Below are positions 266 through 5,620 of a stretch of 7,100 bases of DNA, in pieces; within the stretch, counting starts at the first letter, position 1, and each line of letters starts with the position of its first letter. The position numbers and the translations under genes are program-made. The DNA is taken from assembly GCA_002718095.1 (NCBI GenBank), contig PBDP01000010.1:1-7100 (forward strand), read 5' to 3'. The notes under the pieces are model-generated. The model had not been told where the DNA came from. It searched no databases and saw nothing but the letters and a program-made list of their open reading frames with translations. Source of the DNA: Chloroflexota bacterium (GTDB lineage Bacteria > Chloroflexota > Dehalococcoidia > Lucifugimonadales > UBA826).

Positions 266-724
266 GTGGCTATTAAAATAATACTAATAATACTTCGCTG
301 GATTTTTGCATTACCTGCAGGATTGATTACAGGATTTCTAGTCATGTTTCCTGTTCATTGGTTTTTAATGTTTATGTATTCTATTGGCGGGAACCCTGTG
401 ACTTTGTTTATATCAATTGAGACAACAGAACGTCTAATTCAAGGATTTGTCATCCCCGCAGTCACTATATACGTATTTGCCATAATAGTACCAAATCTAA
501 AGAAGATTTCTACTCTTATTTTAGGGGCGACCATTTTTATATTACATGCAATTAATTGGATTTTAATAATTTTTAATAATGGATATTATTGCTATGGTGG
601 TGGGGTTTGTATGGGGCCTTATTCTGGGTTAGCTTGGATTGAAGCACCTTTTCAAATCGGTGTATTGTTTTTAGTGGTTTGGTATGTTTATAAAATCGTT
701 GTTGAGGATAACGAACTTGAATAA
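266..724 (+). CDS. Unrecognised multi-pass membrane protein (152 aa)
   Basis: The product is very hydrophobic, with about four to five predicted helices: roughly residues 4-20 and 20-40 (one broken or two helices), 59-76, 81-103 and 127-145. It ends in a short charged tail (VVEDNELE). A loop between the last two helices has a CYGGGVC motif (Cys109 and Cys115) that could form a disulfide or bind a ligand if it faces outward. The start is GTG with AGGA about 10 bases upstream, inside the end of the preceding small frame; that spacing is slightly long. The gene converges on the minus-strand gene at 776-1324 with a 51-base gap and no obvious terminator hairpin. It matches no family that I recognise, so no function is proposed. 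The location in a repeat-bounded patch suggests accessory content. Confidence 0.65.
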   Translation: MAIKIILIILRWIFALPAGLITGFLVMFPVHWFLMFMYSIGGNPVTLFISIETTERLIQGFVIPAVTIYVFAIIVPNLKKISTLILGATIFILHAINWILIIFNNGYYCYGGGVCMGPYSGLAWIEAPFQIGVLFLVVWYVYKIVVEDNELE

Positions 725-775: not shown

Positions 776-1324
776 TTAATTATCTTCTGAAACCCTAGGA
801 TCTCTAGAGTCTACTGCACATTTTCCTTCTCGATAGAACAGGTGGTCATGATCAAGATATGTTCTGATATAAATTGCTTTATAGGGATTTGTGTCTATTG
901 CCTTATTAAAAACAACTGACAACGTCTCTACATTTTTATCCTCAAGATCAGCATAAGTAGCCATTATTGATGATGAAGTTTTATAGTTTATTTTATATGT
1001 ATTTTTTACATATTCACGTTTGGGTAGATAATTCACATAACTTGTCACATGATCATATTCAATATATAAATCATTTTCATTTATCACACTTAAAATAAAA
1101 GAATGTCCATTTGAGTTTGAATCAGGGTCGAAGTTATCTTCACAAACATAATAAAAAAGATCATCATATCCTGGAGTTCTGTAATCATCAGTCATATAAG
1201 TTGAACAACCTATAAATAAAAAAACAACTATTGCTACTATGGGTACTATTTTGTACGATCGGTCTTGAAGAGTATCGGCATATGGAAGCTCTAAATTTTT
1301 ATCAAGTCGATCAAAATTGTTCAT
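776..1324 (-). CDS. Unrecognised single-anchor or lipoprotein-like protein (182 aa)
   Basis: A polar N-terminus of about 25 residues is followed by one hydrophobic segment (residues 26-39) ending in LFIGCS, with Cys40 at the position of a lipobox cysteine. The remaining 140 residues are acidic, rich in Asp, Asn and Tyr, and have two more cysteines (61 and 169), so a secreted or surface domain is likely. Phe at the -3 lipobox position and the long N-region are atypical for a lipoprotein, so a plain signal anchor is equally possible; no start codon nearer to the hydrophobic segment is seen. The ATG has a good SD (AGG, 8 bases away) and an extended -10 promoter upstream. I recognise no family. 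It is convergent with the membrane protein gene on its left. Confidence 0.65.
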   Translation of the reverse strand: MNNFDRLDKNLELPYADTLQDRSYKIVPIVAIVVFLFIGCSTYMTDDYRTPGYDDLFYYVCEDNFDPDSNSNGHSFILSVINENDLYIEYDHVTSYVNYLPKREYVKNTYKINYKTSSSIMATYADLEDKNVETLSVVFNKAIDTNPYKAIYIRTYLDHDHLFYREGKCAVDSRDPRVSEDN

Positions 1325-1531: not shown

Positions 1532-1607
1532 TGGCAGGGGTGGCAGGGATCGAACCCACGACCTTTGGTTTTGGAGACCAACGCTCTACCAACTGAGCTA
1601 CACCCCT
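1532..1607 (-). tRNA. tRNA-Trp (anticodon CCA)
   Basis: The minus strand folds as a full 76-base tRNA. The acceptor stem AGGGGTG pairs with CACCCCT; the D arm is GCTC/GAGC; the anticodon stem TTGGT/ACCAA encloses loop CTCCAAA with CCA at 1572-1574; the T arm contains TTCGATC. The discriminator is G and the 3' CCA is encoded (complement of 1532-1534). CCA reads UGG, so the tRNA carries tryptophan. Only 10 bases (all A/T) separate its 5' end from the 3' end of rnpB, and no promoter fits in that gap, so it is probably co-transcribed with rnpB and its 5' end matured by RNase P. A 10-base palindrome ACAAATTTGT (1523-1532) touches the CCA end. Confidence 0.96.
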
Positions 1608-1617
1608 TAATTAATAA

Positions 1618-1965
1618 GGCTGAGAAGGATTGTAAGCCGAGTTCTGTACTCCATAAATGAAGTGACGACCATCTATCTAGCTACTTCGTTACCGAAATAG
1701 TCAAGCGGCCAACCCAGGTAAGGCTCGGACCTTAATTACCTCTATTAGGCCTTGCTCCAGATGGGGTTTACCTATGCCAAAAATGTTACCATTTTTGCGG
1801 TGAGCTCTTACCTCACCTTTTCACCCTTACTGTAAAAACAGCGGTATATTTCTGTGGCACTATCCGTCGGGTCACCCCGCCCCGCAGTTAACGGGCATCC
1901 TTCCGAGAGAGCTCGGACTTTCCTCTGAAACCAAATATTTCAGCGGCCGTCCATCTTTCTCAACC
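1618..1965 (-). ncRNA. rnpB: RNase P RNA, bacterial type A
   Basis: This is the catalytic RNA of RNase P, which removes 5' leaders from pre-tRNAs together with the RnpA protein. Read on the minus strand, it contains the universally conserved blocks GAGGAAAGTCCGAGCTC near the 5' end, ACAGAAA, GTAAGAGCTCACCG, GAGCAAGGCC with the following AATAG, AGATAGATGGTCGTC, and ACAGAACTCGGCTTACA near the 3' end. The ends are set by helix P1: GGTTGAGAA (1957-1965) pairs with TTCTCAGCC (1618-1626). A hairpin AAAAATG-GTAA-CATTTTT with a GNRA loop matches P12. The length of about 348 bases is normal for type A. The recombinase-like gene ends 37 bases upstream; tRNA-Trp follows 10 bases downstream. The ends are estimated to within a few bases. 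Confidence 0.96.
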
Positions 1966-1973
1966 TTGACTAA

Positions 1974-1982
1974 ATAATAACA
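1974..1982 (-). promoter_or_regulatory. Extended -10 promoter of rnpB
   Basis: The minus strand reads TG-T-TATTAT, and its downstream edge is 8-9 bases from the first base of the P1 helix, so the predicted transcription start coincides with the rnpB 5' end. The -35 region at about 1997-2002 (TTTTCT) is poor. The element lies in the 37-base gap after the recombinase-like gene, which gives the RNA genes their own transcription start. Confidence 0.55.
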
Positions 1983-2002: not shown

Positions 2003-3352
2003 TCACAAATTAATTTTTATAGATCTGTCCTTTACTCTTATGGAATCTATGTATTCTTTTAAAAAAGCTTGTTTTTCAGCAAAACTATGCTTGTCCCAGT
2101 TTTTGATCATATTGGGAACATCTGATGGATCTGTACTAATAAATGCTTGTGTCCTAACTAAATCCAACTGATCTAAATATAAAGATAACCTTGCTATTAC
2201 AGATTGTCCTTTGGAAGTTTTTTTCATCGAATCTATAAATCTATCTTCCGCCGCAACAACTTGGCGCATTCTGTCTTCAGCAGCATTACTTGCTTTTTTA
2301 CTTCCATATTCACCTTCCATGCTTGCTTGGAGTTCACCGTTGTCTGATAAAGTTTTTACCAATTCTAAAACTTTTGTTTCTAACTTATCGGTTGGCCAAG
2401 TATGATATTTACAAGTTCCTCTGTTGCCTCTAGATTGACACTGATAATATCTGTACGAACTTTTAACCCGAGTCCCATCTTGTCTTTGCCATGCTTGTTT
2501 GCGACTAGATCCCATCATTCTGCTTCCACAATATCCACAAACACATAATCCAGATAATAAGTATGGTGTACTATCAGGGAATCCTCTGTATCTTCTGCGT
2601 TCTCTGATTTTATCTTGAGCTTCTCTGAATAATCCTGCATCTATTAATGGTTCATGGTTCCTGGTTAAACGTAATCCAAATCTTGTATAAGTTCCCATGT
2701 AGGAAGTGTTTTTTAAGATGTCTCGTATGGATACTATATTCCAGGCATTTCCTTTTTTTGTCAGTAAGTTATGTTCATTTAAATGTTCTGCAATTTTCCT
2801 TAAACCTAGATCTTCTTCAACATATAGGGAGTAAATTTTTTTAACAATAGTAGCTTCTTCGCTGTTTATTACAAATTTGCTTTCTTGATTTATTTCATAT
2901 CCAAATGGAGGTTTCCCTAACGATTTACCCTCCATTGCTCTTTTTTGCATAGATTCTTTTATACTACTGCTTCTTTTACGAGATACTCCTGGTGGATCAA
3001 AGTGTAAAAATGCATTTTGTAAAATATCTGGGAAATCTTCTTCTAAACAAAAAAAAGAAGATCTGGATTTTTCTGCTTTTATAACAGCTCGTGCAATTCC
3101 TTCAAGGTCAAAACTCACATGGGTCGCATCGGGTATTACAATTAAAAATCCGCCATCTGTTTCATCTATAAAAGAGAATAGTTTTTCTAAATCTGAATAA
3201 TTTTCATCACTTATTGATGGGTTTGAAAAAATTTTCTTAACTGGAGTATGTCCTAGTGTATTACAAAATTCATCAAATATAGTGTTGAATTTTTCTTCGT
3301 CCCAATTTGTTTCTTGGGACTTAGTTGTTCTGCATAGTCCAATAGTTTTCAT
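2003..3352 (-). CDS. Serine-recombinase-family protein with degenerate catalytic domain (449 aa)
   Basis: Residues are numbered from the ATG at 3352. The C-terminal two-thirds is typical of large serine recombinases: a Recombinase DNA-binding domain at about 125-245 (GKPPFGYE, then a helix-turn-helix region with IAEHLN and SIRDIL), a zinc beta-ribbon at about 264-320 with Cys272, Cys275, Cys305 and Cys314, and a charged coiled-coil-like stretch at about 357-400. The N-terminal resolvase domain is poorly conserved. Where active enzymes have Y-x-R-V-S it reads LCRTTKS, with no Ser at the nucleophile position. The DRLSR motif is replaced by DATHV, and the segment before the long linker helix is shortened. 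It therefore probably binds DNA but may not recombine it. The start is 4 bases after the stop of the zinc-ribbon gene, with a GGA 8 bases upstream; a TTG at 3403 would add 17 residues overlapping that gene and is less likely. Base composition resembles the neighbours, which suggests long residence. Confidence 0.85.
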   Translation of the reverse strand: MKTIGLCRTTKSQETNWDEEKFNTIFDEFCNTLGHTPVKKIFSNPSISDENYSDLEKLFSFIDETDGGFLIVIPDATHVSFDLEGIARAVIKAEKSRSSFFCLEEDFPDILQNAFLHFDPPGVSRKRSSSIKESMQKRAMEGKSLGKPPFGYEINQESKFVINSEEATIVKKIYSLYVEEDLGLRKIAEHLNEHNLLTKKGNAWNIVSIRDILKNTSYMGTYTRFGLRLTRNHEPLIDAGLFREAQDKIRERRRYRGFPDSTPYLLSGLCVCGYCGSRMMGSSRKQAWQRQDGTRVKSSYRYYQCQSRGNRGTCKYHTWPTDKLETKVLELVKTLSDNGELQASMEGEYGSKKASNAAEDRMRQVVAAEDRFIDSMKKTSKGQSVIARLSLYLDQLDLVRTQAFISTDPSDVPNMIKNWDKHSFAEKQAFLKEYIDSIRVKDRSIKINL

Positions 3353-3356
3353 ATAG

Positions 3357-4061
3357 TTAATCCGGTATACATAGTATCCTTTGGCATGAATTACATAAAA
3401 CAAATGTTATATCTTTTTTTAATTCTTGAATTATTTTTGTTGGCACAGATACCATACAGGTACCACATAAGTTAGATGTAAGTTCGCTTACAGCAATACC
3501 TTTGTGAGTTTTACGTAATTTGTCATATCTTAGCAGTGCTGGTTTTTGACATTTTGCCCTTGCATCATCACTTTCTTTTAAAGCAATATCTAATTCTGAT
3601 TTCAAATTTGATATAAGCTGCTTTAGTTGTGGGATCTCCTCTTCTCGAGTCTGCTCCATGATGGATAGTTGGGAGTAAGCTTTTTCTAATCCGTCAGAAT
3701 ATCTATCTTGATCTATCATAATAGAAAGTATTTGATCTTCGTTATTTTCTACCATAGTGGATAAAGTTTCCATTTCTTCTTGTAGCGCACTTAATTCTTT
3801 TTCAGTTTTTATTAATCCGCTATATATTTTGGAATTTATCGATGAGATTTTCTCATTTAAAGATTCGATATCCTTTTCTATTTTACTTCGATTTAACTTA
3901 ATCTCTTTAAGTTTATCTTCTACTAAAGTATTTAGTTTTTTAGATTTTGTGATTTCTGTATCATCATCTAACTTAAATTGGGCTTTTTCCAATTTGGTTT
4001 TTATGTCTGATACTTTAATATCACATTCTTGTAAATTCAGTAGTAATTTACTATCACTCAC
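3357..4061 (-). CDS. COG1579-type coiled-coil protein with C4 zinc ribbon (234 aa)
   Basis: Residues from about 8 to 175 are a long charged helical region rich in Lys, Glu, Leu and Ile heptads, as in the paired coiled coils of this family. The C-terminal domain has CGTC (199/202) and CNSC (223/226), the four zinc ligands of a zf-RING_7 type ribbon, followed by the usual RIL and an additional Cys231. The motif HKGIAVSELTSNLCGTC is close to the family pattern. Family members have been tied to nucleic-acid or protein-complex scaffolding roles in various bacteria, but a precise function is not established for most, so none is assigned. The start is GTG with SD AAGAGG 5 bases upstream and a good promoter. 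The recombinase-like gene follows after 4 bases and is likely translationally coupled. Confidence 0.9.
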   Translation of the reverse strand: MSDSKLLLNLQECDIKVSDIKTKLEKAQFKLDDDTEITKSKKLNTLVEDKLKEIKLNRSKIEKDIESLNEKISSINSKIYSGLIKTEKELSALQEEMETLSTMVENNEDQILSIMIDQDRYSDGLEKAYSQLSIMEQTREEEIPQLKQLISNLKSELDIALKESDDARAKCQKPALLRYDKLRKTHKGIAVSELTSNLCGTCMVSVPTKIIQELKKDITFVLCNSCQRILCIPD

Positions 4062-4168: not shown

Positions 4169-5620
4169 ATGGTGAATATGCAAGATAGATATCCATTCCC
4201 AGAACTTCCTAAAACTAAGATTGTTTGTACTTTAGGTCCTTCAACAAATAATCCTACAATTCTAACCCAAATGATTGAATCTGGTATGAATGTTGCTAGG
4301 CTTAATATGTCTCATGGTGATTTAGTAACACACAAAAGCTATGTAGATATGGTTAGAGATATTTCTAATGACTTATCTATTCCAGTTGGGCTAATGGTAG
4401 ATGTTCCTGGTGCTAAATATAGAACCGGTTCATTGAAATCTGGTGGGATAACTTTGAAAGAAGGAAATTCCTTTGTTTTGTCCAGCGATATATTTGTAGG
4501 TAACAATGAACGAGTATCAATTATTCCCTCAGGCTTTCATAAAGATGCAGACGTTGGAAGAACGGTATTGGTTGATGATGGAAATATTGAGCTTGAAGTC
4601 CTATCTGTCAAATCGAATGATGTTACATGTAAAGTTGTTAGGGGAGGACCTCTTACTAAGGGTAGGGGAGTTGTAACACCTGGGAAATCCCCTTCTCAAG
4701 TTTTTCCTGATGATAAGGCAGTTGAATGTTTAAATTTTGCATCTTCTGTTGATGCTGATTTTGTTGCACTTTCTAATGTTATTGATGCAGATAATATAAA
4801 AACTGCTCGTGACATATTAAAAAATAACAACGGACATAACCCTATTATTATCTCTAAAATAGAACGTTCTGAAGCAATAGATAATATTGCCTCAATAGTA
4901 GAAGAAACAGATGCAATAATGGTTGCTAGGGGTGATATGGGTGTTGAATTACCTTTGAATAGAGTTCCAATAATACAAAAAGATTTAATAAGAAGAAGTA
5001 ATGAGGTAGGGAAACCAGTTATTACAGCTACTCAGATGTTGGAATCCATGATAACTTCAGCCTCTCCTACTAGAGCAGAAGTGACTGATGTAGCTAATGC
5101 TGTTTATGACGGATCTGATGCCGTAATGTTGTCAGCTGAAACTTCTATAGGTCAATATCCATTAGAAGCGGTAAGAGTTATGGTTAATGTTGCATTAGAA
5201 GCTGAAAAAGCTTTACCTTATCAATTTATGATGAACACTCGTCATAAGCAATTGGAATCAGAGGTTGATGATGCGGTAAGTTTTGCAGCTTCTCAAACTT
5301 CAAACACATTAGATGCTAGTTTAATAATAGCTTTTACCGAAACAGGAGTAGCAGCTGGTAGAGTTTCTAGATATAGACCTAAAGCAAAAATACTTGCATT
5401 AACCCCTTCACAGAAGGTTCAAAATTTGCTTACATTATATTGGGGTGTCTTCCCGTTAGTTGTTAGTAAGGTAGAAGATGTCGATGATTTGTTTGCTATT
5501 GGGGAACAGGAAGCTAGAAATATTTTAAATCGAGATCCCCATATGGTGATTTTAGTTGCAGGTACTCCAATAGGAGTTCCTGGTACGACTAATATGCTGA
5601 GAATTTTGAATTTAAATTAA
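4169..5620 (+). CDS. pyk: Pyruvate kinase, divergent form (483 aa)
   Basis: Converts phosphoenolpyruvate and ADP to pyruvate and ATP in the last step of glycolysis (cytosol). Domains are complete: A barrel start with TKIVCTLGPST (16-26) and ARLNMSHG (43-50); B lid at about 88-165; A barrel continuing with ISKIE (Lys230, Glu232), MVARGDMGVE (Asp256), TATQMLESM (Thr288) and PTRAE; C domain at about 350-483 ending GVPGTTNMLRIL. Catalytic Lys, metal-binding Glu/Asp and Thr are all present. Unusual points: the usual D-x-x-GPxIRxG is DVPGAKYRTG (78-87), SFVR after the B domain is SNVI (202-205), and the usual EKD segment reads FPDDK. Lys83 occupies the position whose Lys marks potassium-independent pyruvate kinases. 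No SD precedes ATG 4169; ATG 4178 is an alternative. cysS follows after 16 bases. Confidence 0.95.
   Translation: MVNMQDRYPFPELPKTKIVCTLGPSTNNPTILTQMIESGMNVARLNMSHGDLVTHKSYVDMVRDISNDLSIPVGLMVDVPGAKYRTGSLKSGGITLKEGNSFVLSSDIFVGNNERVSIIPSGFHKDADVGRTVLVDDGNIELEVLSVKSNDVTCKVVRGGPLTKGRGVVTPGKSPSQVFPDDKAVECLNFASSVDADFVALSNVIDADNIKTARDILKNNNGHNPIIISKIERSEAIDNIASIVEETDAIMVARGDMGVELPLNRVPIIQKDLIRRSNEVGKPVITATQMLESMITSASPTRAEVTDVANAVYDGSDAVMLSAETSIGQYPLEAVRVMVNVALEAEKALPYQFMMNTRHKQLESEVDDAVSFAASQTSNTLDASLIIAFTETGVAAGRVSRYRPKAKILALTPSQKVQNLLTLYWGVFPLVVSKVEDVDDLFAIGEQEARNILNRDPHMVILVAGTPIGVPGTTNMLRILNLN

Follow-up and report, generated by a model that had tools for sequence, protein, structure and literature searches.

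A catalytically dead large serine recombinase homologue beside COG1579 and rnpB in Dehalococcoidia is probably a domesticated DNA-binding protein

The window, the whole 7,100-nucleotide stretch of DNA analysed here, carries a gene for a 449-residue homologue of large serine recombinases. On the minus strand, a COG1579-type gene is followed by the recombinase homologue, rnpB and tRNA-Trp; pyruvate kinase and a cysS-like gene lie on the plus strand, divergent from them. The recombinase homologue begins 4 nt past the end of the COG1579-type gene, as the initial annotation had it. That annotation also placed rnpB directly downstream, which holds, at a distance of 37 bases, which becomes 40 nt by the Rfam limits of RF00010. 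The COG1579-type protein matches Pfam CT398_CC (1.2e-8), with a Zn_ribbon_9 match below that family's cut-off. The recombinase homologue is single-copy in its source genome (1.44 Mb, 10 contigs). Two further open reading frames of the window, 776-1324 (minus strand) and 266-724 (plus strand), have no Pfam match. The features of the locus are:

1532-1607, minus strand: tRNA-Trp, after rnpB (genomic context)
1617-1962, minus strand: rnpB, gene for a class A RNase P RNA, next downstream of the recombinase homologue (Rfam RF00010, 295.6 bits)
1974-1979, minus strand: TATTAT, a probable -10 box belonging to a promoter of rnpB itself, 11 nt ahead of the RNA (cross-locus comparison)
2003-3352, minus strand: catalytically dead large-serine-recombinase homologue, 449 aa, ATG at 3352 (open reading frame, Pfam, AlphaFold2 model, fold matches)
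3357-4061, minus strand: COG1579-type protein with coiled coil and C4 zinc ribbon, directly upstream of the recombinase homologue (Pfam, synteny)
4169-5620, plus strand: pyruvate kinase, divergently oriented and kept as a neighbour through much of the order (genomic context)

Modelling and profile searches indicate that the window protein descends from large serine recombinases and keeps their fold, combining a resolvase fold with a Recombinase domain, zinc ribbon and coiled coil. Pfam detects Recombinase (1.8e-17) and Zn_ribbon_recom (3.4e-14) in it and no Resolvase, even at E 1; among 64 family members, Recombinase and the zinc ribbon occur in all 64 and Resolvase in 28 (best E 2.8e-14). The zinc-ribbon cysteines Cys272, Cys275, Cys305 and Cys314 are invariant when these 64 members are aligned. 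An AlphaFold2 model of the window protein, with 64 aligned orthologues as input, reached a mean pLDDT of 90.8 and includes the coiled coil. Among PDB structures, the closest are complexes of SPbeta integrase, with a Foldseek E of 1e-20 and a VIA Z of 18 over 371 residues; the Listeria A118 integrase-DNA complex 4kis (Z 15.1) comes next, and phiC31 and Bxb1 also match. The full-chain rmsd is large, as expected if the domains are placed differently. The N-terminal domain matches 3bvp, the catalytic domain of TP901-1, with a Z of 13.5 and an rmsd of 3.7 over 122 residues; together with the model, this match suggests that the N-terminal part is a resolvase fold, though degenerate. The domains are laid out as follows:

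2999-3352, minus strand: residues 1-118, degenerate resolvase-fold catalytic domain (alignment, AlphaFold2 model, fold match)
3323-3325 and 3119-3121, minus strand: codons of Thr10 (Ser10 position) and His78 (Arg68 position)
2597-2917, minus strand: residues 146-252, recombinase DNA-binding domain, the family's most conserved part (Pfam PF07508, conservation)
2348-2587, minus strand: residues 256-335, zinc ribbon (Pfam PF13408, alignment)
2006-2347, minus strand: residues 336-449, long coiled coil and C-terminal part, helices 347-380 and 386-403 (AlphaFold2 model)

Active serine recombinases need a nucleophilic serine and several arginines. We aligned the family with ordinary Chloroflexota serine recombinases and gamma-delta resolvase, numbering residues by the resolvase sequence. 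In the window protein, Ser10 is Thr10, Arg45 is Tyr52, Arg68 is His78 and Arg71 is Phe81; Arg8 alone is kept. The initial annotation had called both the nucleophile and the arginines of the DRLSR motif missing, and this alignment agrees on each. Ordinary recombinases have Ser10, Arg45, Arg68 and Arg71 in 100% of cases, compared with 8, 27, 4 and 8% in the family. Serine occupies position 10 in 10 of 123 members, the others having Asp, Thr, Asn, Leu or another residue, and position 68 is Arg in 3 and His in 77 of the 123. Scored for Arg8, Ser10, Arg45, Arg68 and Arg71, 41 members retain none of the five, 63 one, 16 two and 3 three; none of the 123 retains four or five, a loss as consistent as domestication had been expected to bring. 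By its residues, the window protein would not pass for an active large serine recombinase. Its Thr10 could in principle act as nucleophile, but with the arginines missing this is implausible, and loss of the active-site residues would make DNA cleavage by the serine-recombinase mechanism impossible. Cys30, His35, His78 and Cys102 of the window protein might form a new metal site.

The family is widespread within one bacterial class. Protein searches gave matches in 39 of 60 relatives and in 185 of 250 genomes of the order, counts that include some ordinary recombinases, and a class-level profile search found strong full-length matches in many more families. In other Chloroflexota classes the best profile matches were partial, at E 1e-48 or weaker. 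Orthologues span the class Dehalococcoidia (SAR202 and other orders), in a very large set of uncultured Chloroflexota, and the close named relatives are metagenome-assembled genomes (MAGs) of SAR202 and other Dehalococcoidia. Confinement to a single strain, which would have spoken against domestication, does not apply to a gene present in many families. Ordinary, probably active relatives occur in the same order.

Genomic position is conserved along with the gene. In 80 named loci chosen by sequence alone, COG1579 lies directly upstream in 79 and rnpB downstream on the same strand in 64, bearing out the synteny that domestication should leave. The distance to rnpB in those 64 loci is 1-177 nt in 44 and 0.45-2.2 kb in 20; in some genomes rnpB is elsewhere, with COG1579 still attached to the recombinase homologue. 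This variation makes the link to COG1579 tighter than that to rnpB. At 61 of 79 loci, a gap of -4 to 12 nt separates COG1579 from the recombinase homologue, a spacing typical of co-translation, and the two are therefore probably co-translated. Neither COG1579 nor rnpB was detected near ordinary recombinases at six loci, and rnpB lay near none of 26 (flanks of ~1 kb). In the window and 38 further loci, rnpB has a conserved -10 box in the short stretch that separates it from the recombinase gene, 5-18 nt ahead of the RNA; 5 or 6 of 6 positions match in 29 of these 39 loci and in 1 of 38 controls. Because rnpB has its own -10 box, the recombinase gene is not simply an rnpB leader.

Several irregularities were traced individually. 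An assembly or binning artefact was rejected as the source of the arrangement, because dozens of families share it and single-contig genomes show it too. The gene is absent from 8 of 15 same-family genomes (G002, G004, G005, G008, G010, G011, G014 and G015), some of them 92-97% complete. We do not take this as evidence of gene loss: COG1579 and rnpB are missing too in all eight, and the whole region has probably dropped out during assembly or binning. A seeming 316-nt rnpB insertion (L063:6545-6860) is a scaffold gap of Ns. A contig or MAG labelled Thermoflexus hugenholtzii (L129), outside the expected class, carries a family member next to COG1579, which may reflect a naming error, contamination or transfer. 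In some deep members (f42, f74) the N-terminal domain is strongly reduced or a COG1579 neighbour was not detected; such reduced domains suggest that the dead domain is dispensable in places.

The gene is under purifying selection, as domestication predicts. Whole-gene dN/dS is ~0.06-0.35 for pairs with unsaturated dS, and the dead catalytic domain alone mostly stays below about 0.5. Stop-free orthologous frames occur in over a hundred genomes, so the frame in the window is not due to chance; with dN/dS well below 1, this upholds the earlier argument that an open frame speaks against simple decay. The pattern of conservation is inverted relative to ordinary recombinases. Within the family, pairs of sequences are on average 48% identical in the recombinase domain, 46% in the zinc ribbon, 26% in the catalytic domain and 19% in the coiled coil. 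The corresponding means for ordinary recombinases are 33, 34, 36 and 20%, which places the family's DNA-binding and zinc domains above them and its catalytic domain below. Near-fixed residues specific to the family fall mostly in the DNA-binding parts (Arg185, Arg210, Tyr222, Arg224, Arg284, Gln304 and Asn310); Arg224 is present in 99% of the family and 0% of ordinary recombinases, and Arg284 in 94% and 4%. Integrases of different elements recognise different att sites, so a fixed surface shared by the whole family suggests one common target.

Close relatives in mobile elements would have argued against domestication, above all homologues with an intact active site. None was found in the viral contigs, phages or plasmids searched. 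A pattern-based search of 2.9 million viral contigs gave best relatives that are partial and 24-34% identical, and identity among the phage and plasmid matches listed is about 22-28%. PADLOC returned no defence-system match for the recombinase homologue. With its fixed locus and no close viral, phage or plasmid relative found, the family does not look like an integrase of mobile elements.

A tree built on the DNA-binding and zinc domains parts 78 family members from 26 ordinary recombinases by one branch (SH-aLRT 95); inside it, deep branches are weak and some rows long. Adjacency of COG1579 and rnpB also occurs without the recombinase homologue, in G036 (60 nt apart), G058, G028 and others, and a complete Dehalococcoides-like genome has them 520 nt apart, likewise without the gene. 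These cases suggest that the gene entered a pair of long-standing neighbours and was lost again in places, and they imply that it is not essential class-wide. Insertion, vertical descent and several losses form the simplest reading, although the reverse polarity may hold in individual cases. In G018, a 1.3-kb gap between COG1579 and rnpB holds an unrelated open reading frame, not a divergent copy.

Synteny, vertical presence and purifying selection all mark the family as a domesticated host gene, and descent from an integrase that lost its activity and became part of the host genome is strongly supported. The initial annotation had proposed a domesticated factor instead of a mobile-element enzyme; synteny, residue loss and selection all side with it, and the DNA-binding role it assigned is an inference. 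The window protein has probably been tamed into a DNA-binding protein that does a job in the cell. An integrase-type large serine recombinase would have inserted itself between the COG1579 gene and rnpB in an early dehalococcoidian and then, as synteny, tree and residue loss suggest, lost its cutting chemistry and passed vertically as a host gene. The integrase fold is predicted with high confidence to persist, with its dead resolvase-like domain, recombinase DNA-binding domain, zinc ribbon and coiled coil. Most likely the protein would dimerise through its dead domain, bind a single fixed DNA site and, with its co-translated COG1579 partner, act as a regulator or DNA-organising factor. We consider this sequence of events and functions, taken as a whole, likely.

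Other roles fit parts of the evidence. The near-constant translational coupling would suit a structural or signalling partner of COG1579, forming a coiled-coil zinc-ribbon complex unrelated to transcription in which DNA binding is incidental; selection, however, acts most strongly on the modules for DNA recognition and least on the coiled coil, the likely protein contact, and we regard such a role as quite unlikely. Also quite unlikely, in our judgement, is that the protein and COG1579 bind or mature RNase P RNA or other transcripts, with the position beside rnpB reflecting the job. That position is conserved in most named loci, zinc ribbons and coiled coils would allow RNA binding, and the COG1579-like HP0958 is reported to bind RNA. 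Yet rnpB carries its own -10 box, sometimes lies 0.5-2.2 kb off or elsewhere while COG1579 stays attached, and adjoins COG1579 where the gene is absent; moreover, conservation is highest in the modules with which serine integrases bind DNA. A mobile integrase that keeps its activity by means of an altered active site, or a pseudogene inactivated not long ago and on its way to being lost, could draw on Thr10 at the nucleophile position, the retained Arg8 and the probably active relatives in the order. Against either stand the joint absence of Arg45, Arg68 and Arg71, the variability of position 10, low dN/dS with open frames in the members examined, a position fixed across many families and the absence of close relatives in the mobile elements searched, which together leave them very unlikely.

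The preferred reading, a dead integrase homologue turned host DNA-binding protein, has partial parallels. Large serine integrases (SPbeta YokA, A118 of Listeria, phiC31, Bxb1) share the full-length predicted fold and domain order; unlike them, the family lacks the catalytic serine and arginine cluster, descends vertically at one chromosomal locus and has a conserved DNA-binding surface and no mobile element. SpoIVCA (skin element) and XisF (fdxN element) are likewise serine recombinases used by the host, but they are active enzymes that excise an element, whereas the family is dead and has none; the NCBIfam XisF model matches the window protein weakly (67 bits, cut-off 375). COG1579 proteins (CT398/CdsZ and HP0958 type) have a coiled coil and zinc ribbon in common with the recombinase homologue; they are unrelated to it by descent and are its likely partner. 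Transposases that have been domesticated are already known, as are active serine recombinases that serve their host. A literature search conducted mostly outside subscription journals and preprints found nothing on this family, nor any large serine recombinase that is old, vertically inherited, catalytically dead and maintained throughout a bacterial class. Its members are very likely annotated merely as "recombinase family protein" and so miscounted as mobile-element genes in SAR202, an abundant deep-ocean lineage. The apparently fixed specificity would make the family a natural DNA-binding scaffold.

A narrower version, in which a phage-type integrase became a class-wide, single-target Dehalococcoidia regulator that controls this operon and rnpB together with COG1579, is doubtful. 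Searches for a shared operator upstream of COG1579, by k-mer enrichment and subgroup alignments, returned only promoter-like boxes limited to subgroups; between the recombinase gene and rnpB, and after rnpB, they returned only promoter boxes and tRNA sequence. In one subgroup (L109, L113, L114, L122 and L124), a conserved box of ~25 nt (CATCCCTTTTTCATGTACGGGCAGG) precedes a TAGAAT -10 box upstream of COG1579 and is a possible activator or operator site.
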